A stretch of DNA of 64,000 nucleotides from positions 186,001 through 250,000 of the forward strand of contig NZ_CP054139.1 of NCBI RefSeq assembly GCF_013283875.1. Direction: 5' to 3'. Positions 43,382-62,097 of the stretch are shown one piece after another (the stretch's first letter is position 1; each line of letters opens with the position of its first letter). Under the pieces are notes generated by a model that was not told the origin of the DNA, did no database searches, and worked only from the letters and a program-made list of their open reading frames with translations. Source of the DNA: Mucilaginibacter mali. Its GTDB lineage: Bacteria > Bacteroidota > Bacteroidia > Sphingobacteriales > Sphingobacteriaceae. The position numbers and the translations under genes were made by a program.

Positions 43382-44662
43382 ATGAAAACTAACATTAACT
43401 TTCTTAAAGCAAGTTTTAAGGACTTTGAAAATATTCCGGACTTAAACGCATTTGAACGAGCTGAAGTATTCCAGGAATTTACCAACTATATGGAAGAAAA
43501 TGGCCAAATGAATTTTAGATTTATGACCAGCATCAATGGCTGCGGCCCGGAAATGTGGGTAACATCGCCATTTAACAAAACACCAACCAAATGTATTAGC
43601 CTGGTATCTAACGACTATCTGAACTTTACCCAACATCCAAAAGTTAAACAGGCCGCAATTGAGGGAATTGAAAAATATGGCACCGGAGCCGGAGCCTCGC
43701 CCTTAATTGGTGGCCATCATGATTATCACGAATTATTGCAGCGAAAAATATCTAAGTTTTTTCACAGAAGTGAAGACTCCGCGTTAATCTTTACTACCGG
43801 TTACACCGCCAACAGCGCAACACTTTTGGCACTTTTAAAAAAGGAGGATATCGCTATTTTGGACATGGCGGTACACGCAAGTGTTTATGAGGGATGCAAA
43901 GAAACTAACGTTAAAATGTTTTTGCATAATGATCTTGAAACATTGGAACGGATTTTAAAAGACGCACACGATAAATTCCTGACAAGGCTGGTAATTATTG
44001 ATGGTGTGTACTCCCAGGACGGTGATTTAGCCAAAATGGAGGAAATCCTGAAGTTAACCAAACAATACGGCGGTTTTTTAATGGTGGATGACGCTCATGG
44101 AATCGGTGTATTAGGTGAGACAGGACGTGGTGCAATAGAAATCTTTAACATGCTTGATAAAGTTGATATCATATCAGGAACGTTAAGTAAAGCTTTCGGC
44201 CATGTTGGTGGTTTCATCGTAGCTGATCCGAAAATTATCAACTTTTTAAAGTTCCAGTCAAGGCAGCAGGTTTTTTCATCAACCTCTACACCAGCAGCGG
44301 CAGGTCTGCTGAAAGCAATCGATTTAATCGACGAGGAACCCCAATGGCGTAAAATGCTTATGGAAAATGTAGCTTATTTCAAAAAAGGATTAACCGATTT
44401 AGGATTAGATATAGGTAACACAGAATCGGCAATTATACCGGTGAAAATTGGCGATGCCCACAAAACTGGTGATGCGGGCCGATTGCTTTTGAAAGCAGGT
44501 GTTTACGCTAATACCATCGTTTATCCGGGTGTCGCGAGAAAAAATGCAAGAATCAGAACCAGCTTAATGGCAACACATACCCGTGATCATTTAGATAAAG
44601 CACTCAGTGCGTTTGAATATATTGATCAAAAGTTGCATATTTCCTCAACCAAAAGGGAATAA
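43382..44662 (+). CDS. PLP-dependent alpha-oxoamine synthase
   Basis: 426 residues of the AOS family (8-amino-7-oxononanoate synthase, KBL, SPT and CqsA type). SNDYLNFTQHPKVK and GAGASPLIGGHHDYHELL bind the cofactor and acyl-CoA. The PLP lysine is in SGTLSKAFGHVGG and the Asp partner in MVDDAHGIGVLG. These enzymes join an amino acid to an acyl-CoA. No biotin or sphingolipid genes are beside it. The linked TetR regulator hints at an acyl-derived signal or lipid. The substrate cannot be told from the sequence. Confidence 0.8.
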   Translation: MKTNINFLKASFKDFENIPDLNAFERAEVFQEFTNYMEENGQMNFRFMTSINGCGPEMWVTSPFNKTPTKCISLVSNDYLNFTQHPKVKQAAIEGIEKYGTGAGASPLIGGHHDYHELLQRKISKFFHRSEDSALIFTTGYTANSATLLALLKKEDIAILDMAVHASVYEGCKETNVKMFLHNDLETLERILKDAHDKFLTRLVIIDGVYSQDGDLAKMEEILKLTKQYGGFLMVDDAHGIGVLGETGRGAIEIFNMLDKVDIISGTLSKAFGHVGGFIVADPKIINFLKFQSRQQVFSSTSTPAAAGLLKAIDLIDEEPQWRKMLMENVAYFKKGLTDLGLDIGNTESAIIPVKIGDAHKTGDAGRLLLKAGVYANTIVYPGVARKNARIRTSLMATHTRDHLDKALSAFEYIDQKLHISSTKRE

Positions 44663-44664
44663 AC

Positions 44665-45315
44665 ATGACCAAAAAAAGATATCAAGGCGAAACAAATGAT
44701 AAAGAGCGTTCAATGCAGCGCTTAATGGAAGCGGTTGGCTGTGTTATAAAAGAAAAAGGGTATTCAGGACTTGGCCCTACAAATATTGCTAAGGCAGCCG
44801 GATTAAATAAAAGATTGATTTATTTCTATTTTGGCACCGTTGATAATCTGATTGAACAATACGTCCGGAGTAAAGATTATTTTGCAGGAGCTTCTAATGG
44901 TGCCAATCAATTGTTAGAACAGAACAAAGCGTCGGGCACCTGTAAGTTGCTTGAATCCTTGTTAATAAATCAATTGGAGCATTTCTATAACAATGAAGAA
45001 ATGCAAAAAATCATTTTATGGCAAATCAGCCAAAAAAGCCAAATAATGTATGAGGTCGCCGAAACCCGTGAGCAACTCGGAGCACATTTTTTTGAGCTCG
45101 CTGACAAGGAATTAGACAGAGCTAAGGTTGATTTGCGCGCAGTTGCCGGTTTACTGGTAGGCGGAATTTACTACATGGTGCTTCATGCCAAATCTAATGA
45201 TAGTTTATTCTGTCAAATTGATGTAAATACAAAAGAGGGGATAGAAAGGATAAAGAGTGCGATAAGTACTATTTTAGCAGACACCTACCGATGCGCAGGA
45301 CTATCAAATAATTAA
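44665..45315 (+). CDS. TetR-family regulator
   Basis: 216 residues. The N-terminal HTH is typical (MEAVGCVIKEKGYSGLGPTN then IAKAAGLNKRLIYFYFGTVD). The C-terminal ligand-binding domain is helical. It starts 2 bp after the synthase stop, so the two are one operon. It likely senses the product of the synthase or an acyl compound. The TetR family usually represses its own operon. Confidence 0.8.
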   Translation: MTKKRYQGETNDKERSMQRLMEAVGCVIKEKGYSGLGPTNIAKAAGLNKRLIYFYFGTVDNLIEQYVRSKDYFAGASNGANQLLEQNKASGTCKLLESLLINQLEHFYNNEEMQKIILWQISQKSQIMYEVAETREQLGAHFFELADKELDRAKVDLRAVAGLLVGGIYYMVLHAKSNDSLFCQIDVNTKEGIERIKSAISTILADTYRCAGLSNN

Positions 45316-46653: not shown

Positions 46654-49600
46654 ATGAAAAAAACAACGACCAAGATCGCTATGGCATTGCTATGCCTGAT
46701 GCGCAGCTATATTATAACAAATACTTTTCTCTTTTTTTTAGCCGTTTTATTGATTATCCCATATAATAATGCTGATGCCCAGGATCGTTTTGCGCTTGCC
46801 GGAACGGTAATGTCAGCAGATCATGAGCCGCTACCCGGAGCGACTATTGCCGAAGCAAGAACCGGGATTAAAACATCCTCAGATGGTAATGGTCAGTTTC
46901 GGCTGTACCCTGCGGATACAAGCGGATATTTGATCATAACCTATGTCGGTTTCAAAACCGCGCAGGTAAGGTTCGACAAAACAGCTAAAGGGCCGATACA
47001 AATTATGCTTGTCAGCGACCCTTCCGTGCTTAAAGAAGTAATCGTATCCACAGGGTATCAGACATTGCCCAAAGAAAGGGCGACCGGCTCTTTTGTTCAG
47101 TTAGATAGCGCCATTATAAACCGCCGGATCAGCACAGATGCAATCAGCCGTCTAGAAGGTGTTGTTCCGGGATTACTTTTTAACAGGAATACGAGTGCAA
47201 CCTCTACTGGAACGTTAGATATCAGCATTCGCGGACACAGTACCCTGTTTTCCAACGACCAGCCTCTAATTGTCGTAGATAATTTTCCTTATGATGGTGA
47301 TATAAACAATATTAATCCTAACGACATAGCCAGCATCACCGTATTAAAAGATGCTGCCGCAGCATCCATTTGGGGTGTTCGTTCAGGTAATGGCGTTATC
47401 GTCATTACGACGAAAAAAGGGAAATTAAATCAAAAAATGGCGGTAGAGTTAAATGCGAACCTGACCATCGGCGCAAAACCGAACTTATTTTATGATCCCA
47501 ATTTTCTTAACGCAAACGAGTTTATTAATGTCGAGCAAACCCTGTTCGCCAACGGATTTTATAACAGCGCCTTAAACTCAGGCTATCAGGTTGTTTCACC
47601 CGTTGTGCAAATACTGGCAAATGAGCGTGCCGGAACAATTTCAAACGGAGATGCCAACAATCAAATCAATGTTCTCAGGGTTTTAGACTTGCGTAAACAG
47701 ATTGCGAAATATTTTTACCGGACATCAGCTAATCAGCAGTATAATTTGAATTTCAGGGGTGGGGGCGATAAAAGTGATTATTATCTATCATTGGGGTATG
47801 ATAATGATTTAACTAACCAGGTCGGAAATAACAATAACCGGATCACCATCAACAGCAATTACAATTTTTACCCCGTTAAAAATTTACAGTTATCAACCGC
47901 CATTATTTATACGAAATCAAATGAGCAGAACAATAGCACCCTTTCCGGCATCAGAAGTGTTAGCGGCAAAAGCCAGTTATACCCTTACGCGCAAATTGCC
48001 GATGCAAATGGAAGTGCATTACCTGTTATTCATGGCTTCTCTTCAAATTTTGTTAATAATCCCGCCAACTCCCAATACCTTGACTGGAATTATCGCCCGC
48101 TTGATGAGTTAAGTAATGCCGACAACACTTCTGGCATAACTGATAACCGGATAAATCTCGGGCTGAAATATAGTTTCCTAAACGGATTTAGCACTGAATT
48201 TAAATACGTGTATGAAAACAGTCAATCTGATTTCAGCAATTATTTTAATACAAATACTTATTATACAAGAAACCTGATCAACCAGTTCACGCAAAAAAGC
48301 ACCAGCGGATCATTGTCCTATCCAATACCCGTAGGCGGCATACTGCAGGGTGCCAACGCGTCTTTGTTGTCCCAGCATCTGCGCGGTCAGCTTAATTATT
48401 CTAAAGATTGGAATTCCAAGAACTCCTTTAGCGCAATTTTAGGGTCTGAATGGAGTTCTGCGATCAATAAATTGGCGGATCAGGGTACGGCTTACGGATA
48501 CGATAAGAATACAGATGCAAATTTTACAAATATTGATTATTTAACCTTTTATAGCCTGAATCCCCGTGGAATGGGATCAATGCAAATTCCCAACGGCCAG
48601 GCCTATACACAAACGACCGACCACTTCATTTCCTATTTTACAAATGCGGCTTACACCTATGATAATAAATATACTTTATCAGTTAGCGGCAGGATCGATA
48701 AATCAAATCTTTTTGGGGTCAACGCTAATCAGAAAGCCGTCCCCTTATATTCAGCAGGTATTTCGTGGGATATTGGCAAGGAAGATTTTTACCATATCGG
48801 ATGGCTACCAGGCGCGAAGTTAAGGTTGACATTTGGTTATAACGGCAACATAAACAAAACCGTGACGGCTGTCACAACCCTAAAGGAACAAAGTAATTCA
48901 TATTACTCGGGAACGCCTTATAATATCATCGCCAATCCTGGCAACCCGGAACTGCAATGGGAAAAAGACCGCATAATAAACCTCGGATTTGACTTCAGTG
49001 CAAAAAGCCAGGCTGTAACAGGTTCTGTTGAATTTTATTTTAAACAGGGGGACAATTTGTTCGGGAGTTCATCGCTTCCGCCGTCAACGGGATACAGCAC
49101 ATTTTTTGGAAATACCGCGAGTACGTCCGGGCATGGCGCAGATATAACGCTCAACAGCCGCAATATATACCATAAGAAATTTAAATGGCTTACTACATTT
49201 CTTTATAGCTATTCATTTGATAAAGTTAACAAGTATGGTGTTCAGTCCACACTCACGTCATTTCTAACACAAGGCGACGGCAACTCGGGCGTTATCACGC
49301 CACTGATCGGTGCCCCGCTATTTGCAGTCTACAGTTTTCGGTCGGGTACTTTGACCCATAATACCGGCGATCCGCAGGGATACCTTAACGGCCAACTGAG
49401 CACAGACTATTCTGCCATCATCAACAATACATCTGTGAACGATTTAGTTTACAACGGGCCATCAAGACCAGCATCTTTTGGATCATTAAGAAACAACTTT
49501 ATTTATGGGGACTGGACACTATCGTTCAATATTATTTATAAGCTCGGCTATGTCTTCAGGAAACAATCCGTACAATACGGCGCCTTGTATAACAACTGGC

Positions 49601-49974
49601 TGGGGAACAAGGATTTTAGCAAAAGATGGCAAAAGCCAGGAGATGAGCTGACTACCACAGTCCCTTCCATGCCTTTGCCTCCTGTTAACGATAACAGGGA
49701 TTTTTTCTATACGTTCTCGCAAACACTGGTTGACAATGGCGATCATATTCGTCTTCAGGATATCTCAATAAGTTATGACCTCACCAAATCTATCTGGAAA
49801 AACTCACCTTTTACCAACCTTAGCATATATGGCTACATTAACAATGTCGGTATTCTTTGGCGGGCAAATCATGATGGCCTCGACCCAGATGTATTTTCCA
49901 TAACCGGTGGCGGAATAACAAGCCTTCCTTTACCAAGAACTTACGCCATTGGACTTAAATCAAATTTCAAATAA
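46654..49974 (+). CDS. SusC/RagA-type TonB-dependent outer-membrane transporter
   Basis: 1106 residues. An unusually long signal region (to NADAQ, about 43) is followed by a carboxypeptidase-like regulatory domain (LAGTVMSADHEPLPGATIAE). A TonB-box-like segment (KEVIVSTGYQTLPKERATG) and a plug (GLLFNRNTSATSTGTLDISI) follow, then a 22-strand barrel. Together with SusD it imports a specific large nutrient or peptide. No anti-sigma/sigma pair is adjacent. The downstream genes hint at a peptide or cofactor substrate rather than a glycan, because no glycoside hydrolase is present. Confidence 0.85.
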   Translation: MKKTTTKIAMALLCLMRSYIITNTFLFFLAVLLIIPYNNADAQDRFALAGTVMSADHEPLPGATIAEARTGIKTSSDGNGQFRLYPADTSGYLIITYVGFKTAQVRFDKTAKGPIQIMLVSDPSVLKEVIVSTGYQTLPKERATGSFVQLDSAIINRRISTDAISRLEGVVPGLLFNRNTSATSTGTLDISIRGHSTLFSNDQPLIVVDNFPYDGDINNINPNDIASITVLKDAAAASIWGVRSGNGVIVITTKKGKLNQKMAVELNANLTIGAKPNLFYDPNFLNANEFINVEQTLFANGFYNSALNSGYQVVSPVVQILANERAGTISNGDANNQINVLRVLDLRKQIAKYFYRTSANQQYNLNFRGGGDKSDYYLSLGYDNDLTNQVGNNNNRITINSNYNFYPVKNLQLSTAIIYTKSNEQNNSTLSGIRSVSGKSQLYPYAQIADANGSALPVIHGFSSNFVNNPANSQYLDWNYRPLDELSNADNTSGITDNRINLGLKYSFLNGFSTEFKYVYENSQSDFSNYFNTNTYYTRNLINQFTQKSTSGSLSYPIPVGGILQGANASLLSQHLRGQLNYSKDWNSKNSFSAILGSEWSSAINKLADQGTAYGYDKNTDANFTNIDYLTFYSLNPRGMGSMQIPNGQAYTQTTDHFISYFTNAAYTYDNKYTLSVSGRIDKSNLFGVNANQKAVPLYSAGISWDIGKEDFYHIGWLPGAKLRLTFGYNGNINKTVTAVTTLKEQSNSYYSGTPYNIIANPGNPELQWEKDRIINLGFDFSAKSQAVTGSVEFYFKQGDNLFGSSSLPPSTGYSTFFGNTASTSGHGADITLNSRNIYHKKFKWLTTFLYSYSFDKVNKYGVQSTLTSFLTQGDGNSGVITPLIGAPLFAVYSFRSGTLTHNTGDPQGYLNGQLSTDYSAIINNTSVNDLVYNGPSRPASFGSLRNNFIYGDWTLSFNIIYKLGYVFRKQSVQYGALYNNWLGNKDFSKRWQKPGDELTTTVPSMPLPPVNDNRDFFYTFSQTLVDNGDHIRLQDISISYDLTKSIWKNSPFTNLSIYGYINNVGILWRANHDGLDPDVFSITGGGITSLPLPRTYAIGLKSNFK

Positions 49975-49981
49975 CGAAAAG

Positions 49982-51358
49982 ATGAAAACAAACCATCCAT
50001 ATTATTTACCGCTGCTTTTGGTTATAACCACCATAGTATTTAGCGGCTGCAAGAAACAGGATGACCTGCTTAATGCCAAGCCAAATCAGGCCCTGAACAT
50101 TCCCTCCACTCTTGCGGATTTACAATTACTGATCGGTAATGAAAATATATTTAACCGAAATTATCCTTCACTTGGTCTGCTATCAACGGACGATTATTTT
50201 GTCGATGCCGGTCTGTGGGCAAGCAGTTTTGCTTCCGGAAAAAATGCCTATGTATGGGCAAAGGAAATCTACTCAGCGAATACGAACGTGGGGGACTGGA
50301 ATTTTCCTTATCAGGCCGTTTATTATGCCAATACCATATTGTCAATCCTTCCGACAATTCACACTTCAAATAGTCAGCAGACAGCCGCTAACACGATAAA
50401 GGGTTCCGCTTTGTTTTACAGGGCTATATCCTTTTACAACCTCGTTCAGACGTTTGCGATGCCTTATGATTCGACGACAGCCGCCAAAGATTTAGGTGTT
50501 CCATTACCGTTAATGCCGGACTTAAGTTCAAAACTTCCACGCTCGACCGAAAGTCAATGTTATGAGCAGATCATTAATGATCTCAATTCTGCACTTCCCT
50601 TGCTGGCCGACCAGTCAACGTCAAAGACCCGGCCCTCAAAAGCAGCGGTATTAGGGCTGCTCTCAAGAATTTACCTGGTTATGGGTAATTATAATAAATC
50701 GTTAAAATATGCCACCGATTGCCTGGCGCTTTACAACAAATTACAGGATTTCAACAAGCTCGACCCCTCTGCATTTCCTGTTTATCCGAATTTTTCACCT
50801 GAAGAAATATTTCATGCCAGCATGATAGGCTATGATGAGAATAGCTTCTCAGCCCAGGTTGATAGTAACGTTTATCACTCCTTCAACGATCCGCATGACT
50901 TAAGACTGGCCATCTTTTTTTATAACAATAACGGTGAGATCGAGTTCAACAGCCAGTTCGATTTTAATAACGCTAATGCTGCCCCGATTGCCACCAATGA
51001 AATAATGTTAACCAAAGCAGAATGTGAAGCAAGGCTGAACAGTACCTCATCGGCCATGTCTGACCTCAATGCCTTACTGGTGAACAGATGGGTGACGGGT
51101 ACATATAAACCTTTAGTGGCTGTGTCCGCCGATGATGCGCTGAAACAAATTTTAAAAGAGCGACGAAAGGAACTGCTGTTTACCGGATTAAGATGGAGTG
51201 ATTTGCGTCGGTTAAACAAAGACACCCGTTTTGCAATTACGCTGTACAGGAATATTAACGGGGTTACTTATTCAATCGCACCCAATGATCCACGGTATGC
51301 ACTACCAATACCAGATAACGAAATAGCCTTAAATCCCATTCCTCAAAACCCGCGCTAA
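49982..51358 (+). CDS. SusD/RagB-family outer-membrane lipoprotein
   Basis: About 458 residues from the ATG at 49982, eight bases after susC. Lipobox: TIVFSGCKKQDD. The TPR-like helical body (GSALFYRAISFYNLVQTFAM, then LSRIYLVMGNYNKSLKYA) and the C-terminal block (LKERRKELLFTGLRWSDLRR) are typical of SusD. It sits on the cell surface as the lid of the SusC transporter. The substrate is unknown. Confidence 0.85.
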   Translation: MKTNHPYYLPLLLVITTIVFSGCKKQDDLLNAKPNQALNIPSTLADLQLLIGNENIFNRNYPSLGLLSTDDYFVDAGLWASSFASGKNAYVWAKEIYSANTNVGDWNFPYQAVYYANTILSILPTIHTSNSQQTAANTIKGSALFYRAISFYNLVQTFAMPYDSTTAAKDLGVPLPLMPDLSSKLPRSTESQCYEQIINDLNSALPLLADQSTSKTRPSKAAVLGLLSRIYLVMGNYNKSLKYATDCLALYNKLQDFNKLDPSAFPVYPNFSPEEIFHASMIGYDENSFSAQVDSNVYHSFNDPHDLRLAIFFYNNNGEIEFNSQFDFNNANAAPIATNEIMLTKAECEARLNSTSSAMSDLNALLVNRWVTGTYKPLVAVSADDALKQILKERRKELLFTGLRWSDLRRLNKDTRFAITLYRNINGVTYSIAPNDPRYALPIPDNEIALNPIPQNPR

Positions 51359-51381: not shown

Positions 51382-52842
51382 ATGAAAAAAATAACAATGA
51401 TTTTATCGCTTGTCATAAGCGTTTTTACAGGATTTTCGCAAAGCAAACGAACCGTCCTTACTGGTGAGTTTTCACATTTGAAGGACAAGGATACTGTTCG
51501 CCTGTTAGTTTACAGGTACGGCGAATTTCCATATAGTATTAAGGAATTAAGGGAGAGTTATGACGGCGTTGTAAGGGAAAAACAATTTAAAATAAATATT
51601 CCCCTAACCGATGATCTTCCCTATGAATGCCTTTTGGTGATTCCTCGTCTACGGATCAGCGGCGATATCATCATTATAAAACGGGGCGACCAACTACATA
51701 TAAGCGGCAGTGACGTTGTAATTAACGCCCTTACAGGGAAAGGTGCGGAAAAAACAAACGTGCTGCGAAAGCTAAACGAAATATGGAATTCTCCAGCATT
51801 AAAAGCAGCAGCAGCAGCCCCCAATGCTTCCGGGGCATCCGGCTTGCCGTTGCTTATTACCGCTTCTCAAAACGCTTTTGCCGCAGGCAATAATTATTTA
51901 AACACACAACGCGGGCGGCTTGATAACCACAGCTTTAAAATGTTAAAGGCCTATATAAACGGTATGATATCAGAAATTGCCAATACGCTTTACTGGTACT
52001 CTAATGTCGGTTACAGCCAGGCACAAAAAGATTCCATTCAGACTGTTTTAAAAAATGTTTGGCTTCCTTTTAAAAAACGGGCCTATAGCAGTCCTGATGT
52101 TGAAACTTCACTATCTGATTTTTATTTTAGTAAAAATCTCGCGACAGATTATGCCTTGAAACAGGTTATAGACCACCAAAATTTTAATGCACTTAAGGAC
52201 AATTCGGACTTAAAAGAAAAGTACATTTATTTTAAAACTCATTATTCGGGACTGGTCAGGGAAAAGATGATTACGTTTCTTATATTATCTGCACCAAAAT
52301 CCAACGACGTCGGTTACTGTTATGATGATGCCAAAAAAATTATAACCAATAATAGTTTTAAAGCGGCCCTTGATAAGTATTGTCAATGCATTCCGGGATC
52401 TCCAGCCTATAACTTCACTTTACTTGACTCCAACAAAGTCATCCATCATTTAACAGACTACAAAGGCAAAATTCTTGTTTTTGATTTTTGGTTTACAGGC
52501 TGCGGAAATTGTCGTGAACTGACCCCAAAGTTAAGGGAAGTGGAATCACGGTATGCAAACAATAGCAAAGTGGTGTTTATCAGTATAAGTTCGGATAAGA
52601 ATTTTAATCTGTGGAAAAATAGCATCCGGGACGGGATTTATACAACGTCTCCGCAGGAAATCAACCTTTATACTTCAGGCAACGGCATCGCTGACCCTTT
52701 GTATTATAAAACAAATACTTATAGTGCCCCCACCTTAAAATTGGTTGATGCCAATGGAAACTGGTGTGAAAATCCAATAGACTGCCGGTTCGACAACGGG
52801 AAAGACCTCATCGGTAAGATTGATAGACTGTTAAATAACTAA
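51382..52842 (+). CDS. TlpA-like exported thioredoxin-fold protein
   Basis: 486 residues. A signal peptide (ends in GFSQ) precedes a DUF4369-like N-terminal part. A TlpA/ResA-type thioredoxin domain is at the C-terminus: ILVFDFWFTGCGNCRELTPK, active site CGNC. It is a periplasmic thiol oxidoreductase. It ends the susCD operon and faces the MauE/DUF6520 genes, which also contain Cys, so a shared thiol pathway is plausible. Confidence 0.8.
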   Translation: MKKITMILSLVISVFTGFSQSKRTVLTGEFSHLKDKDTVRLLVYRYGEFPYSIKELRESYDGVVREKQFKINIPLTDDLPYECLLVIPRLRISGDIIIIKRGDQLHISGSDVVINALTGKGAEKTNVLRKLNEIWNSPALKAAAAAPNASGASGLPLLITASQNAFAAGNNYLNTQRGRLDNHSFKMLKAYINGMISEIANTLYWYSNVGYSQAQKDSIQTVLKNVWLPFKKRAYSSPDVETSLSDFYFSKNLATDYALKQVIDHQNFNALKDNSDLKEKYIYFKTHYSGLVREKMITFLILSAPKSNDVGYCYDDAKKIITNNSFKAALDKYCQCIPGSPAYNFTLLDSNKVIHHLTDYKGKILVFDFWFTGCGNCRELTPKLREVESRYANNSKVVFISISSDKNFNLWKNSIRDGIYTTSPQEINLYTSGNGIADPLYYKTNTYSAPTLKLVDANGNWCENPIDCRFDNGKDLIGKIDRLLNN

Positions 52843-52853
52843 TGACAAATTGA

Positions 52854-52888
52854 ATAACGCCCTTTGCGAACTATACAAAGGGCGTTAT
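52854..52888. terminator. Strong bidirectional terminator between convergent operons
   Basis: ATAACGCCCTTTG and CAAAGGGCGTTAT form a perfect 13-bp stem with a 9-nt loop, between the TlpA stop and the DUF6520-like stop. It ends transcripts coming from both sides. Confidence 0.85.
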
Positions 52889-52895
52889 CCGTTTG

Positions 52896-53162
52896 TTACC
52901 GGTAAACCTGGTTGGTCACAGTCTGTCCTGCCGGCATTTGCCCGTCAACAGGTGGCGTAGAGGTAACAATTGTACAGGCCACATTTAAAGCGGTTGATTG
53001 GCAAGTTAAATGAGGTTTTGATGTTACCCAAATAAAACTGCTGCCAGATTTTTGGGCATAATACGTAGTAGCATTCTTTTTTGCAGCAGGGCTAAAAGCG
53101 AATGCACCACCGACGCTGCTGATAGCAGCCAGGGCCATAAAGGCCATTTTAATTTTTTTCAT
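52896..53162 (-). CDS. DUF6520-like small exported protein, possible modified peptide
   Basis: 88 residues with a signal peptide (MKKIKMAFMALAAISSVGGA then FAFSP). The mature part contains two Cys nine residues apart (HLTCQSTALNVACTIVTSTP) in a Thr/Ser-rich context, as in DUF6520 proteins. It is the last gene of the LanKC-MauE operon. It may be the substrate of the synthetase or of thiol oxidation. A Sec signal is unusual for a lanthipeptide precursor. Confidence 0.6.
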   Translation of the reverse strand: MKKIKMAFMALAAISSVGGAFAFSPAAKKNATTYYAQKSGSSFIWVTSKPHLTCQSTALNVACTIVTSTPPVDGQMPAGQTVTNQVYR

Positions 53163-53244
53163 AATGGTATTTTTTTAATTAAATATTACCGGTTTTAAGT
53201 CCAGGACCAGTTTTAACCTGATTTCGCGCGTGAAATATTTTTAA

Positions 53245-53691
53245 TTACAGTGAACTTCTAGCAGAGCGGGCTATTTCCTGTCGTTTCCCAGGGGTTATTT
53301 TTAAACTGATAACCGCAATCGCTATGAAAAAAAGGTTGAATAACAGATGTTGCTTCCAGGTCAGCAGCCTGATGATCCCACCACAGGTACAAGGTTCTGC
53401 CGGATATAAATGCAGTAAGATGGCTATAATATAAAAGGTAAACGTAATCATAAGGATAATGGTCGCGATCAGACCGGATTTCCTGGTCTTTTCGAAGAGC
53501 AGCAAAGTTGCCGTTATAACTTCAGCCGGGGGAAGAACAATAACCAGTAGTTGACTGAGCCATACGGGAAAAGGTTGATTACCCATTGCTCTTTTGAATC
53601 CTGAGAAATCAAAGTATTTACTGAATGCGGCATACAGGAACATCATAAAAATGAGTGTAACCAAGATATCTGCTATTATTTCCTTTTTCAT
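53245..53691 (-). CDS. MauE/DoxX-like membrane protein
   Basis: 148 residues with four membrane helices (for example DILVTLIFMMFLYAAFSKYF and VITATLLLFEKTRKSGLIAT). The motif EPCTCGG, between helices 3 and 4, is a CxC pair typical of MauE-like proteins thought to pass electrons or disulfides. It lies 10 bp after the LanKC gene. With TlpA (CGNC) and the Cys-containing DUF6520-like protein it suggests a periplasmic thiol system. Confidence 0.7.
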   Translation of the reverse strand: MKKEIIADILVTLIFMMFLYAAFSKYFDFSGFKRAMGNQPFPVWLSQLLVIVLPPAEVITATLLLFEKTRKSGLIATIILMITFTFYIIAILLHLYPAEPCTCGGIIRLLTWKQHLLFNLFFIAIAVISLKITPGKRQEIARSARSSL

Positions 53692-53701
53692 TTATATGTC
53701 T

Positions 53702-56329
53702 TTAAATTGAGAATAAATGGAAGCCAATTTTTTCCGGATGTTGAAACCGTAATAAGAAATGCAGTATGCCACCGGTACCGGTCATAAAACCTGCGGTCGG
53801 CAAATTTTCGCTGCCATCTAACCAATAGGTGCTGCCGTCTTCCTGTATCTTTGCGCAATGGGCTAAAAATGCCGCAATGTGTGATGCCCTTTCAAACCAT
53901 TCTTTTTCTTTAGATACGCGGTATGCTTCAAGGTAGACTTCGCCTAAACCTGCTAAGCCATTAGCCTGGCTTAAATAATTACTTGCGATAAAGCGAGGGT
54001 GGCTTAACAATGCTGATTTGGCGGCTTCGTAATAAGCGTCATCATTTAATATTTCAGACGCTTTGATAAATAACCAAGCTACACCGGTAAACCCATATTC
54101 CAGCCAGGGATTAACAGACTGGCCATTTGAATTTACAGACCATATCAGCCGTCCATTTTCTGACCGTCTGTTTTTTAGCAACCAGCCTAATGCAGCTGTG
54201 GCAGCGGCTTTACTTTCTTCACTACAATACCTAACCCCGTATTCCAGCAGGAAATAAGTGATACCAGCTATGCCATAAAATAACCCGGTATGTTTTACAC
54301 CCTTTTTAGAAGTATTATCTTTATTAATCGACCATGAACCGTCATTATGCTGCTCCCGCATCAGTTGATTGGCGATATTGCCGGCAGATGATGCAAAAGC
54401 TGGGAATTTCAATAAGTCCGCACATAACAGCATAGCTATTCCCTGTCCCGCCACGCCATTTGCGAGGTTTATCTGATCGTTGACCTGCGAAAGCTGGCTG
54501 GAAATGTTATCGAAATTAGCGATGTGCCTTCCAAATAAATCATATTTAATCAACAAAGCCTTAGCTACACAAAACCCTGACAAGCCATTCAACAGTCCAC
54601 ATTCTGGCACCATGGTTTCTTGATAATAGGCAGTCACTAAGTCTAAATTAGAATAAAGAAAATCGCGGTTATCCGATAGGTCATATCCGTAATGGTCAGC
54701 CAATGCAAGCAGGTAAACAATGCCGCAGGTTCCCGAATAAAAACCGGGAAACCAGGAGTAACTTTTAAATTCATTTGAAATAATGTTATCCTCGTTTTCG
54801 GACTTTGCATACCAGGTACTATTTTTCCCTAACAACGGGTATTTTTGATAAGACAATAAAACATCCGTAAACATGCTCACGAAATTTTGCTCAGCTTCCG
54901 ATTTATAATTTGAGTTAACGCCCTTGCTTTCAGTTAAAACGGTGGAAGAATAGACCTCCAGGCAATGTCTTATCCTGTCGAGCGTGGGTCGTTTGCCCGC
55001 GTCATTATCCAGGCATAAACAAATTAGTGTGACAATTCTTTGGTTTTGCAGGTGATACATTAAATCCAGGTATAACTTTTCCTTATCATCCGGATTGAAT
55101 TTTGTGGGTGACAGACCAGTAAAGGCTCTGAGTATCAATCCCCCAATGCCATAAATATCGTCCTCTACGCAAGGTATGTTCGACCTGATTTGTTCGGGTG
55201 ACATATAACCGGGAGTGCCTAAGGTGAATGCGGGATTGGGCTGATTTGTCAAATAATTAAAACAAAGTTCTATATCTATCGCTATCACGTTATTGTCAGC
55301 AGTAACCATAAAATTTAAAGGGCTTAAATCCCGGTGAATGAATCCATTAGAATGAAATTTTCCGAGGATATCCAGCGTTTGGAGGAGATAATTAATGATA
55401 GCTATTTTATTTTGTGTTTCCAATGCGAACCAGGCGGTTCCTCCCTGCAGACCATTAAACATATCGTATAAAGAATTGCCCTCTATAAACTCCATTACTA
55501 AATACGTGCTCCTCTCCAATTCAAAAAAATCTGAAACTTTTGGCAAAGCAACCTTTCCATCCAGCGCAGACTGAACATGAAATTGCCATTCAAGCCTGTC
55601 CCTGATCGTTCTATCAGCATCATCGTAACATTGATTTGCATTTCCTTGCTTAATGATACACCATTTGATATTTGACCACTGGCTGAAATTCAGACCCTTG
55701 TAAACATTTCCTTTAATGTCACCCTTAATCATACTGGCGATGAGGTATTTTCTTTTTAGCCATTTTGTTTTTTTGGCAAGTGGTTCCGGGGATATTTTTT
55801 TGAAAGGCCATCTGAGATCATTGTCAAATTTTAATCCTTCCGTTCCAGGCGGGGATACCCTATATTCAGTATAGACACAGCTGCCTATCAGCTTTGCGCC
55901 GGGGATGGCTGGACCCAGGAATTTTTCCGTGCTCTTGACCAGTTGTCCGGCGATTATGGGCAGACTTTCCTTATTGGACACCTGGATAATGATTACCTTT
56001 CCTGTTTGGTTTAAACCCAGGCCACCATCAAGTATCATCGAATGTACGCCTGCATTTTCAGGTATGAAAAAGGTTACATTCGCTGAGTTCAGGAAAGGCA
56101 GTACTGCCTCGAAAAGTAAGGCAAATTGTTTTTTAACTATGGAAATATATAATACCCAGCCACTTTCGGATTGAAAATTACCAACCCTCAAATAGCCTCC
56201 GTCCGAGATAAAATCCAAACCGGATTTTTCCAAATAAAAATCATACCCCACCAATGGACGACTTCTTAACGGGCTTTCCGCAGCATCCGTTGAAGTCACG
56301 CCATCAGGTTTAAAAGCAGGCTGTTCCAT
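53702..56329 (-). CDS. LanKC-like lanthionine synthetase (lyase-kinase-cyclase)
   Basis: 875 residues. The N-terminal part (1-230) is lyase-like. A Ser/Thr-kinase domain follows, with catalytic loop HRDLSPLN (about 331-338) and metal site DIE (about 351). The C-terminal 370 residues are a LanC-type alpha-toroid with repeated GxxG (GTCGIVYL, LANGVAGQG, NGLAGLGEVY, GTGGILHF). The zinc ligands of LanC are absent (EYGFTG and ANGLAGLG instead of CHG), as in many class III enzymes. Such enzymes phosphorylate, eliminate and cyclise Ser/Thr-Cys peptides. Confidence 0.75.
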   Translation of the reverse strand: MEQPAFKPDGVTSTDAAESPLRSRPLVGYDFYLEKSGLDFISDGGYLRVGNFQSESGWVLYISIVKKQFALLFEAVLPFLNSANVTFFIPENAGVHSMILDGGLGLNQTGKVIIIQVSNKESLPIIAGQLVKSTEKFLGPAIPGAKLIGSCVYTEYRVSPPGTEGLKFDNDLRWPFKKISPEPLAKKTKWLKRKYLIASMIKGDIKGNVYKGLNFSQWSNIKWCIIKQGNANQCYDDADRTIRDRLEWQFHVQSALDGKVALPKVSDFFELERSTYLVMEFIEGNSLYDMFNGLQGGTAWFALETQNKIAIINYLLQTLDILGKFHSNGFIHRDLSPLNFMVTADNNVIAIDIELCFNYLTNQPNPAFTLGTPGYMSPEQIRSNIPCVEDDIYGIGGLILRAFTGLSPTKFNPDDKEKLYLDLMYHLQNQRIVTLICLCLDNDAGKRPTLDRIRHCLEVYSSTVLTESKGVNSNYKSEAEQNFVSMFTDVLLSYQKYPLLGKNSTWYAKSENEDNIISNEFKSYSWFPGFYSGTCGIVYLLALADHYGYDLSDNRDFLYSNLDLVTAYYQETMVPECGLLNGLSGFCVAKALLIKYDLFGRHIANFDNISSQLSQVNDQINLANGVAGQGIAMLLCADLLKFPAFASSAGNIANQLMREQHNDGSWSINKDNTSKKGVKHTGLFYGIAGITYFLLEYGVRYCSEESKAAATAALGWLLKNRRSENGRLIWSVNSNGQSVNPWLEYGFTGVAWLFIKASEILNDDAYYEAAKSALLSHPRFIASNYLSQANGLAGLGEVYLEAYRVSKEKEWFERASHIAAFLAHCAKIQEDGSTYWLDGSENLPTAGFMTGTGGILHFLLRFQHPEKIGFHLFSI

Positions 56330-56679: not shown

Positions 56680-57255
56680 TCAATAGGGCAAACCTTTATG
56701 CAGTCGGCTAAAGGTTTCTTTGGTGACATTCAGGTAAGACGCGACAAGATATTGGGGCACCCGTTTTAGAATAAAATCTTCGTTCGCATTAAGGTAGGAA
56801 TATCTGTCTTTTGCCGTCGGTATCCTTAATAGTTTTTCCCTGTAATGTAACTCAGAGGCGGTTTCCGCCATCAGCAAAATCATCAGTTCCATAGCCTCGG
56901 GTACAGTTTCGCTGATTTTTTGCAAATTTTTAAACGGCAAGGCGATCAGGGTGGTCTTAAATACCGCGCTGATATATTCCTCGCTTGGTTGCTGGTTGAC
57001 CAGTCCGTGCGGCACAATGATGTCGCCGTCCCGCTTAAACCAGGTGCTTAACTTTTCGACTGGCCCTTCGATTGCTCCCCTTACCAAACCAGATTCGATA
57101 AAATAAATGCAACTGGCATGGTTGCCAGGAGAAAGGAACGTCTCCTGCGCCTCAAACCGGTTAATTCTAAACGCTTCCATCAATAAATTAGAAAGTTTTA
57201 ATGAAAGTGTTTTTGTACGGTTCAGGCGGTGTATAAAATCAGCGGCACTATTCAT
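56680..57255 (-). CDS. Crp/Fnr-type regulator with cyclic-nucleotide-binding-like domain
   Basis: About 191 residues from the ATG at 57255. The cNMP-binding-like beta roll is seen around LSPGNHASCIYFIESGLVR and the C-terminal HTH (QYLVASYLNVTKETFSRLHK) matches the Bacteroidota Crp group. Cyclic-nucleotide ligand residues are not obviously conserved. It stands alone between the LanKC operon and the RteC-like genes and may control either. Confidence 0.75.
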   Translation of the reverse strand: MNSAADFIHRLNRTKTLSLKLSNLLMEAFRINRFEAQETFLSPGNHASCIYFIESGLVRGAIEGPVEKLSTWFKRDGDIIVPHGLVNQQPSEEYISAVFKTTLIALPFKNLQKISETVPEAMELMILLMAETASELHYREKLLRIPTAKDRYSYLNANEDFILKRVPQYLVASYLNVTKETFSRLHKGLPY

Positions 57256-57410
57256 TATTACTGTTTTTTTAAACAAAGAACTACAAACTAAAGGCTTCAG
57301 TCAAGTGGCTGCGGGTTGCACCAATTCAGCCACCTTTTTAAAAAACGCACGTTTTTGTCAGAATTTCCTATTAAGCAATATAATTTTCCCTTATTGGGGA
57401 ATTTTATGAT

Positions 57411-57486: not shown

Positions 57487-58668
57487 ATGGCAGCGTCTAT
57501 AACTAAAATAAAGGGGTTCATTCAAACCTATATTGGTTACAATTTTGAAAATTTAACCGAGGCAGAACTAGAAGATTTAAGGATTTTTTTAAGCCAGGCT
57601 TTAATTGCGCTGCGCTGGGAAATGGAAGATGAATTTAATAACCTGCATGACGATGCCGAAAAATCAAAGTATGTTTTAGGGTTGCAATCTCAATTGATAT
57701 TTATTGCTGACGGAATAACAAATTTCCAATTTGAGGACAACGACGTGGTTATTCTGCCACAGATATTTAAATGGCTGCAAATAAATATTTTCCAAGTGCT
57801 TGAGGATATGTGTGCGTTCTTTAGGGATTATTTTAATCTCGACGCGAAATTACCGTCGACGTTTTTTGAACCGGATAGCCATTCAAATCAAATCGCAAGA
57901 TTGACCGCCAATTTACAGCAGCATCAAATTGACGAGGATCTTTCTGAACTCGTATTGAATTATGCCCATGCGGTCAGCAATTCAGATAAATTTAAAGTGA
58001 AAACCTGGCGGCAATTGAATTTTCATAAAAAGCTGATCGCCGCAGTGGAGAAACTAATTGAACCGCCGCAATCAGGAGATATTAATTTAGAGTTGTTAAA
58101 ATTGTTTGTCCGATACGAGTTTAACAGCATTCAGGTATATGCCTATTTCGTAAAATACATAGAACAAATTACCACAAAGGAAACTGCTTTCGAAGAGCAA
58201 CAGGGCGCATTGCTTTATCTGTTAAAGATTTTCAATCAGGTAAGAGTGGAATCTGATCATCTATATGAGCCTACCATCCAATCTTTAAAGGCTTCTGTAC
58301 TCGAAAGCATTACTGCCGAACTGAATTACCTGGAGCAAAAAAATAAGCTTTATCAGGAAAGCTTTAAAGGTTCTGATAGCGCCCCGACCTCAAAATTTTA
58401 TTTCGGCATCGCGGTTACATTAGCAGAGTTGATGTTTTTATTCAGGGTATTCTTAGAGGTTGGTTTTATGCATACCAAATTTAAGTCGTATTTATATGAA
58501 TTCGTCCACAATCATATTAAACCGGAGAAAGAAGAGAACTTTTCCATGAAAAGTATGCGAAACCTTTTAAACAGTAAGCCGTTTCCCGATCGGCTGGTGA
58601 GAAATATAAGAGGCTGGCTGGTGATCATGATCGCTCATATTGACCTGTATTATAATATCAATCCCTGA
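57487..58668 (+). CDS. RteC-like protein, divergent
   Basis: 393 residues, helical and acidic. The C-terminal third (AVTLAELMFLFRVFLEVGFM, then NFSMKSMRNLLNSKPFPDR) aligns in pattern with the RteC C-terminus (NLAEMAYGIWLTGQ). RteC proteins control excision in CTnDOT. Identity to the true rteC at 59320 is low, so it may be an old duplicate with a changed role. Confidence 0.5.
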   Translation: MAASITKIKGFIQTYIGYNFENLTEAELEDLRIFLSQALIALRWEMEDEFNNLHDDAEKSKYVLGLQSQLIFIADGITNFQFEDNDVVILPQIFKWLQINIFQVLEDMCAFFRDYFNLDAKLPSTFFEPDSHSNQIARLTANLQQHQIDEDLSELVLNYAHAVSNSDKFKVKTWRQLNFHKKLIAAVEKLIEPPQSGDINLELLKLFVRYEFNSIQVYAYFVKYIEQITTKETAFEEQQGALLYLLKIFNQVRVESDHLYEPTIQSLKASVLESITAELNYLEQKNKLYQESFKGSDSAPTSKFYFGIAVTLAELMFLFRVFLEVGFMHTKFKSYLYEFVHNHIKPEKEENFSMKSMRNLLNSKPFPDRLVRNIRGWLVIMIAHIDLYYNINP

Positions 58669-60545: not shown

Positions 60546-61799
60546 TTAGGCGGTTGCAGCTAATTTAAGTGAGCCATTTATTTCAAATAGCTTATCATGC
60601 AAAACTTTCATATTGTTGCTGATTTTCCTTTTGGTCATCTTAGCATAGATCTGTGTTGTACGGATATCCTTATGACCGAGCATCTTGCTTACTGTTTCTA
60701 TAGGCACGTCATTTTCCAAAGTAATTGTAGTGGCGAAAGTATGGCGCGCGGTATGGGTGGTCAGTAATTTGTTGATGTCACAAATATCTGCCAGTTCTTT
60801 CAGATATGAATTAAACCGCTGGTTGCTGTTGACCGGCAGCAATTTATTTTCGTTGACGCAATAGGGGTGGCGTTTATATTTTTCGATGATCTCCAATGCA
60901 ACAGGCAATAGGGGTACGGTTTCCTCTGTACCTGATTTGGCCCGATCTTTTGTGATCCACAAACCGCCATCGACACCGGTAAAGATATTTTCCGGTTCAA
61001 GCGCATACACCGTTTCAAACGCATAGCCGGTAAAACAGCAGAAGACATAGACATCCCGGACTTCGGCAATCCGCTGACAGCTGATTTTCTTACTGTACAT
61101 TTTGATAATTTCATCCATTTCAAGGTAATCGCGGTCCGGGTCTTTGTAGGTACATTTAAAGTTATTGATGGCACTTTGAGGGATCATCCCTTCGTTTACG
61201 GCCTTCGCCATTACCTGTTTTAAGGTTTTGACGTATTTCATGGATGTGTTTTCGTCAATATCCTGCATCAATAAATAATGATAAAAACCAGATGCGAAAG
61301 AATATTGGATTTGGTCAAGGTTAATGTCTGAGGCTTTGAACTTCTTTTTCAGGTAGGCTTCCACCTTTCGCTGTAAGCGCTCATAGCGCCCCAGTGTTCC
61401 TTTTGTTCCTTTGCCTTTGCTTACCTTTTCTGCGAACTCGTCATTATGCACTTTAAATGCCTGCATCAATGTAGGTTTAGGCTCTGGTTTGAACAGGTAG
61501 GCATCTTTCAGCATTTTAGCGGTGACATCTTCATGTTCTTCACAAAGCAGATTATAGCACTTTTCCAGCTCCCTGGTAGTATAAGTGATATAGGTATTGA
61601 TCGTTGCAGCATCTTTACATGCTTTAATGGCGAATCCGGTCTCTTCATTCCAGTATTCTGCCTTGATTTTCTTGCCGGATGAGAACTGATCCCTTAACCC
61701 GTTGAGGGTAATCCGCACATAGATGGGAACCATCCCATCTGAGGTTTGTTTGGCTTTCCAAAGCCAGAACAAGATTGAAAGTTCCTGATTTACTTTCAT
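60546..61799 (-). CDS. int: IntDOT-type tyrosine integrase
   Basis: 417 residues. Arm-binding N-terminus (WLWKAKQTSDGMVPIYVRIT), core-binding domain and catalytic domain. The HxxR/GH/Tyr residues are in HTARHTFATT, MLGHKDIRTTQIY. The first catalytic Arg region reads TGYAFETVYAL, with no Arg, as in CTnDOT-type integrases. It integrates and excises the element, probably at the 3' end of tRNA-Lys beside it. Confidence 0.9.
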   Translation of the reverse strand: MKVNQELSILFWLWKAKQTSDGMVPIYVRITLNGLRDQFSSGKKIKAEYWNEETGFAIKACKDAATINTYITYTTRELEKCYNLLCEEHEDVTAKMLKDAYLFKPEPKPTLMQAFKVHNDEFAEKVSKGKGTKGTLGRYERLQRKVEAYLKKKFKASDINLDQIQYSFASGFYHYLLMQDIDENTSMKYVKTLKQVMAKAVNEGMIPQSAINNFKCTYKDPDRDYLEMDEIIKMYSKKISCQRIAEVRDVYVFCCFTGYAFETVYALEPENIFTGVDGGLWITKDRAKSGTEETVPLLPVALEIIEKYKRHPYCVNENKLLPVNSNQRFNSYLKELADICDINKLLTTHTARHTFATTITLENDVPIETVSKMLGHKDIRTTQIYAKMTKRKISNNMKVLHDKLFEINGSLKLAATA

Positions 61800-62001: not shown

Positions 62002-62024
62002 ATCTCTCCTTAAATCGGATTTTG

Positions 62025-62097
62025 TGATCCCGCTGGGACTCGAACCCAGGACCCCAACATTAAAAGTGTTATGCTCTACCGGCTGAGCTACGGAATC
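62025..62097 (-). tRNA. tRNA-Lys (anticodon TTT)
   Basis: A 73-nt cloverleaf on the minus strand. Acceptor stem GATTCCG pairs with CGGGATC (one G-U). The TpsiC loop GGTTCGAGTCC is normal. The anticodon loop CTTTTAA gives TTT. The 3' end faces the integrase, the usual attachment position of this ICE type. Confidence 0.95.

Follow-up and report, generated by a model that had tools for sequence, protein, structure and literature searches.

The operon at positions 52896-56329 of the DNA analysed here (64,000 nucleotides of Mucilaginibacter mali contig NZ_CP054139.1, positions 186,001 to 250,000; hereafter the window) raises the question of whether a protein resembling the lyase-kinase-cyclase lanthionine synthetases (LanKC) makes or handles a thioether-bearing peptide, as the original prediction supposed, or has another role. 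We think it fairly probable that the locus is a horizontally mobile module of an exported peptide and a SusCD importer, to which a LanKC-derived Ser/Thr kinase has been added as an accessory. The LanKC-like gene (53702..56329, minus strand; 875 aa) is the first of the operon and is followed by mauE and by the gene of a small exported protein, with gaps of 10 bp and 82 bp; all the open reading frames (ORFs) are where the original prediction had placed them, and the three-gene operon that it described is real. The mauE gene (53245..53691, minus strand) encodes a 148-aa MauE/DoxX-type redox-associated membrane protein with a PCTCGG motif, whose Pfam match (PF07291, 3.9e-29) scores 102 bits against a gathering score of 27. 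The small gene (52896..53162, minus strand; PF20130, 8.8e-5) encodes a DUF6520-like protein of 88 aa that, as predicted, begins with a Sec-type signal region and has two Cys in all (C54 and C63). Converging on these genes from the plus strand are those of a SusC/RagA-family TonB-dependent transporter (46654..49974; CarbopepD_reg_2, TonB Plug 1.3e-10), a SusD/RagB-family lipoprotein (49979..51358; SusD-like_3 4.7e-31, SusD_RagB) and a TlpA/AhpC-TSA family thiol oxidoreductase with a CGNC motif (51382..52842; Thioredoxin_8 1e-10). The Pfam matches thus place a SusD-family lipoprotein and a TonB-dependent SusC side by side, that is, a SusCD importer.

According to its predicted structure, the LanKC-like protein has the whole fold of a class III lanthionine synthetase, with a lyase-like part (residues ~28-160), a Ser/Thr kinase (~190-465) and a LanC-like part (~530-870). 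Along its whole length, the AlphaFold model (mean pLDDT 79.5) superposes on CuvL, with Z 33.3 over 760 residues, and on ThurKC, with Z 26. Pfam recognised the LanC-like and kinase parts (LANC_like 1.2e-27, Pkinase 6.1e-19) and the lyase-like part weakly (RamC_N 1.2e-4, 22.1 bits vs a cut-off of 27). The best NCBIfam match was the class IV (LanL) model NF038150, at 263.9 bits against a cut-off of 650, and the class III (LanKC) model NF038151 gave 150.5 bits against a curated cut-off of 575, so that neither was reached.

The catalytic residues were compared in an alignment of 40 relatives (the window protein included), 38 of which belong to the module, with four references, namely the LanL proteins of Kitasatospora and Streptomyces, a Haematobacter protein and a protein from L. 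paracasei; the ThurKC numbering was placed on the motifs through their order and not through the ThurKC sequence itself. In ThurKC, K65, K94 and R163 are each needed for dehydration and the single mutants are inactive (PMC10604976), and work on VenL and SpvC indicates the same lyase site (PMC2843593). The positions K65/H67/K94/D152/R163 are V/Y/F/A/E in the window protein, and the equivalents of K65, K94, D152 and R163 are lost in 38/38 module members, while the lyase K/H/K/D/R set is kept in 4/4 references. By contrast with the lyase site, the kinase residues K227, D334, N339 and D352 (the VAIK-type Lys, the HRD Asp, the Asn and the Asp at the DFG position) are invariant in 40/40. Partly canonical lyase sites were found only in the two proteins outside the module, L087 (first lysine) and L088 (H/K/D/R). 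The surroundings of these two genes (L087:4265-11058 and L088:7784-15113) encode an FAD oxidoreductase-like protein of 1060 aa, along with one that is thioredoxin-like and with small Sec-type proteins in tandem, and they are possibly a separate peptide system.

The zinc-ligand positions of the LanC-like part (Cys-Cys-His) are E/A/N in the window protein and hence lost, as is normal for class III, whose cyclases act without zinc (PMC10604976). The part itself is optional in the family: a LanC region was found in 22 of the 38 module members and is missing or unrecognised in the other 16, twelve of which end after the kinase (434-532 aa), whereas the remaining four have a C-terminal part, in which Pfam gave no LanC in the three tested. 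The original prediction of a lyase-kinase-cyclase protein therefore holds for the fold, as modelled, and is not supported for a working thioether enzyme, given the replaced lyase residues and the optional cyclase. The protein is probably a lanthionine synthetase by fold and not by chemistry, and a thioether mechanism is further weakened because the Cys pair of the small protein is independent of both lyase site and LanC.

The latter is seen in a set of 40 small proteins, taken from loci with a full-length LanKC-like protein (22), with the kinase only (9) and with no kinase (9), in which exactly two Cys occur in the mature part in 40/40, with or without kinase or LanC; the extra Cys of L089 and L131-L133 precede the likely start or signal. 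Assignment to DUF6520 is close to the threshold for the window protein (23.2 bits vs a gathering score of 25.4) and above it for the L030 homologue (29.2). Conservation in the signal and mature parts was 0.65 and 0.35 with full-length LanKC-like proteins, 0.54 and 0.29 with the kinase only, and 0.37 and 0.16 without kinase, so the signal is the better conserved part in all three groups and this leader-like pattern is not linked to the kinase. In the structure prediction the mature part folds, with beta strands and a pLDDT of ~90, and a search of the PDB with the model returned nothing significant. The PCxC motif of MauE is kept in the aligned relatives. Because the pair persists in loci without any cyclase, beside MauE PCxC and TlpA CGNC, and because a fold is predicted for the mature part, the two Cys are best read as a disulfide, which fits better than a thioether. 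A Ser/Thr four residues past the second Cys occurs in 30/31 of the full-length and kinase-only loci; as a signature of a kinase site it was rejected, since it is absent in ~10 divergent kinase-bearing loci and present in 2/9 kinase-less ones. A second precursor, in the form of a LanA gene hidden ahead of the LanKC-like gene, was set aside as well, no conserved small ORF being found there, and the only precursor candidate seen is the downstream Sec-exported DUF6520-like gene.

That gene has a structured leader of its own. The 82-bp gap contains a 57-nt RNA element (53184..53240, minus strand), a hairpin with an H-type pseudoknot whose stems are CAGG/CCTG and CTGGT/ACCGG in the window. Both pseudoknot stems show compensatory changes among relatives (CTGGT/ACCGG, CCAGT/ACTGG, CCAAT/ATTGG and CTGAT/ATCAG in one; CAGG/CCTG and CGGG/CCCG in the other), and 87.8% of the cells in the pair counts are paired. 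The covariation score was 0.239 vs 0.125 +/- 0.017 for shuffled alignments, with 0/500 shuffles as high and slid versions all far lower, a comparison that is not to be taken as a probability since the rows are related; the structure was also read off the same sequences. A covariance model (R1) gave 75.9 bits for the window element and, at E up to 0.1, a single copy in its own genome; over 60 genomes its strong matches (E 1.4e-4 or lower) were at the module with a single exception, a weak match of 29 bits in another family (L177). No Rfam family matched the window element (type A), and RF02914 (DUF805b) gave no match to 131 bases of the window at an E threshold as loose as 10. Kinase-only and kinase-less loci carry DUF805b (type B) instead at the same place, over the Rfam gathering score in 8 loci. 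DUF805b also precedes many other genes of the family, which makes it a general leader element and not a mark of the module, possibly with a general role as a translation leader there. In L199-L228 we observed it a short distance ahead of ORFs of diverse kinds, among them those of short RiPP-like (ribosomally synthesised and post-translationally modified peptide) and secreted proteins.

To see how far the arrangement holds, 100 relatives and 400 family genomes were searched and the neighbourhoods fetched; a single-protein scan of contigs gave no relatives and the whole-genome search was used, and kinase-domain-only matches from a phylum search (L136-L140) were left out as probably ordinary kinases. 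A relative is present in 35 of the 400 genomes, in six genera. The LanKC-like, MauE and small genes recur together in nearly every module locus examined, in at least six genera, which is the conserved co-occurrence on which the original prediction had staked its proposal and which argues that the gene order is not due to chance. In two loci a member was identified on inspection (in L029 the small gene, in L026 MauE), and ~10 divergent loci miss the hidden Markov model of the small gene, although a small Sec-type ORF can be seen by eye in most of them, not convincingly in L095. The TlpA-SusD-SusC genes are convergent with the triad in most loci, so that the linkage noted in the original prediction is genuine; the exceptions are L027 (SusD ~10 kb off), L032, L035, L090, L099 and, partly, L102 and L106.

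The module also exists without the kinase. MauE, the small protein and SusCD were found without it in L126-L131 and L134, and among twenty loci selected by SusD, 12 had MauE and the small gene, 2 the small gene only and 0 the kinase. Crp, AraC, helix-turn-helix or LytTR regulators adjoin MauE in kinase-less copies. SusD could not serve as a module-specific marker, its subfamily being widespread (127/201 genomes) and 6/20 sampled copies lacking the small gene. Four of the twenty SusD-selected loci have an apparent LanB-like ORF beside the module, and Pfam confirmed LanB in L128 and L131. LanB-type dehydratase genes divergent from mauE were observed in L128, L131, L148, L158, L159 and L162, most of them accompanied by LytTR/histidine-kinase-like genes and by candidate Thr-rich precursors of 50 aa; these loci seem to have short precursor-like ORFs of their own, so the DUF6520-like protein need not be the target of LanB. 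Upstream of mauE in L034, L035, L129 and L130 there are C39-peptidase genes (by Pfam in L035 and L129) and GG-type short peptides.

The mobility of the module is supported by its position in an integrative and conjugative element (ICE), which, like the RNA element, is absent from the original prediction. A tyrosine integrase gene (60546..61799, minus strand; Phage_integrase, Arm-DNA-bind_5) adjoins a tRNA-Lys (62024-62097), and an 18-bp piece of the 3' end of this tRNA (62024-62041) occurs exactly once more in the genome (G000:C1:159466-159483). On comparison this match lengthens to a 27-bp direct repeat (62020..62046, minus strand), and the repeat pair bounds an ICE of ~88.6 kb that carries the module together with a relaxase, TraG, a coupling protein, ArdC and RteC, the gene content of a conjugative element. 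In L023 the integrase region is 90.7% identical in DNA over 3.2 kb and the cargo is far more diverged, at 71-73%. In L026, L028, L030 and L031 the kinase gene is next to ORFs that, judged from their sequences, are of conjugation type.

Other features flank the operon. A strong terminator-like hairpin with a 16-pair stem (52852..52890) separates the convergent units. Upstream of the operon is a Crp/Fnr-type regulator gene (56680..57276, minus strand; cNMP_binding 4.9e-5, under the curated cut-off), found upstream in several relatives too, and next to it is encoded a 393-aa protein with no Pfam match (57487-58668, plus strand), which several relatives (L023-L025, L029) also have next to their Crp gene. 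Ahead of the module an AOS-type pyridoxal phosphate enzyme and a TetR-like regulator occupy 43382-45315; there is a DNA match at the equivalent place in L023, and in L024 a similar one is apparent from reading the sequence.

We therefore favour a mobile exported-peptide/SusCD module whose LanKC-like protein would be a diverged lanthionine synthetase, deprived of the lyase chemistry but with the Ser/Thr kinase kept; peptide binding or scaffolding is the probable role of the lyase-like and LanC-like parts in those proteins that have them. The kinase could phosphorylate the DUF6520 precursor at Ser/Thr ahead of export or, instead, a partner with control over the module; the Cys pair would form a disulfide handled by MauE and TlpA, and SusCD may import the peptide or a relative of it, in a loop of secreted-peptide sensing or uptake. 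A complete scheme of peptide signalling or uptake on mobile DNA, in which the kinase phosphorylates a Sec-bound precursor that is then exported, oxidised by MauE/TlpA and taken up again by SusCD while a DUF805-like pseudoknot RNA controls translation, seems improbable to us when taken as a whole. Some points weigh against the favoured interpretation, in which the small protein is no more than a putative substrate of the kinase: the Ser/Thr at +4 follows clade and not strictly the kinase, and SusCD may have a nutrient role of its own, given the spread of SusD and the copies without the small gene. Moreover, the lyase histidine (H53) is retained in 15/38 module members and the GK lysine in all of them, so some lyase-like phosphopeptide binding may remain.

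These two residues would also fit, though we think it improbable, a divergent but true class III lanthipeptide system, in which an altered lyase site dehydrates the DUF6520 precursor and thioether rings are formed before Sec export. Such a system would agree with the whole class III fold and the zinc-independence of class III cyclases (PMC10604976), with small proteins that are Ser/Thr-rich around their two Cys, with a signal better conserved than the mature part (65% vs 35%), as in a leader, and with the LanB-type lanthipeptide enzymes beside the same module. However, the equivalents of K65, K94 and R163 are replaced module-wide although single mutations inactivate ThurKC, LanC is missing or unrecognised in 16/38, and the Cys pair is kept without LanC or kinase; the prediction is of a folded mature part, no second precursor gene was seen upstream, and the LanB loci own small Thr-rich precursor candidates. 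Thioether synthesis by the LanKC-like protein is thus unlikely, and with MauE, DUF6520 and SusCD also occurring without the kinase, the proposed thioether-bearing peptide is not borne out. A regulatory role of the kinase within the module, exerted on a transcription factor, an anti-sigma factor or translation, is also conceivable, if doubtful; the exported protein would then never be its substrate. The position of the kinase gene at the head of the operon, the regulators beside MauE in kinase-less copies and putative FecR-like/sigma-like ORFs near some SusC genes would fit, but ancestry among lanthionine synthetases suggests a peptide substrate, and the Crp regulator and the kinase occur together in many copies, so that the kinase is no replacement for Crp. 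That the genes are merely a loose neighbourhood without common function is very hard to believe: although an ICE carries the window copy and its cargo genes may have moved jointly, the order holds down to ~28-35% identity of the LanKC-like proteins, in six genera and in several architectures and backgrounds.

The accessory-kinase module matters for annotation, since these loci would be counted by genome-mining tools that recognise class III/IV lanthipeptide clusters by a kinase with a LanC domain, and such annotations in Bacteroidota need care because the dehydration residues are gone. It also joins a LanKC-derived kinase, a DUF6520-like exported protein and a SusCD importer in a single unit open to experiment, and is a concrete example of a SusCD pair that may act on a self-made peptide. 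In the open-access literature searched, we found no mention of DUF6520, no direct description of SusD with lanthipeptides, of LanKC with an inactive lyase or of DUF805 as RNA, and no description of this gene combination, subscription papers being outside the search; it is the combination of genes that is unusual.

Among known systems, the class III synthetases CuvL and ThurKC share with the window protein the lyase-kinase-LanC order and fold and the intact kinase residues, and a LanC domain without zinc ligands, as in ThurKC, is usual in that class. They differ in that the window family has its catalytic lyase residues replaced, LanC optional, MauE and SusCD as partners, and a substrate candidate that carries a Sec signal and whose mature domain is predicted to fold. 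The class IV enzymes (LanL/VenL) have the same domain order and give the best NCBIfam match, whereas the window protein lacks zinc ligands and lyase residues. In a genome survey, class III/IV synthetases were mostly from Actinobacteria and Firmicutes, class I being common in Bacteroidetes (PMC7268733). The original prediction held that a Sec-exported substrate would be new, which is too strong, as Sec-exported modified precursors are already known in the bufferins (PMC12452194). Bufferins and oxazolins, made with multinuclear non-heme iron-dependent oxidative enzymes (MNIO), likewise combine a small Sec-exported Cys protein with an enzyme that modifies it in the cytoplasm, often alongside a membrane protein of the DoxX type (PMC12452194). 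The window has instead a LanKC-like kinase, with SusCD/TlpA attached, and neither an MNIO enzyme nor a DUF2063 partner was among the Pfam matches of the module proteins. The RNA element has the pseudoknot layout of DUF805b RNA (RF02914) and differs from it as a type A element without Rfam detection. Finally, RagAB imports peptides, and the RagAB/SusCD importers resemble the window genes in pairing SusC- and SusD-family proteins with a TlpA-type oxidoreductase, but in the window the pair is linked to an encoded exported peptide.

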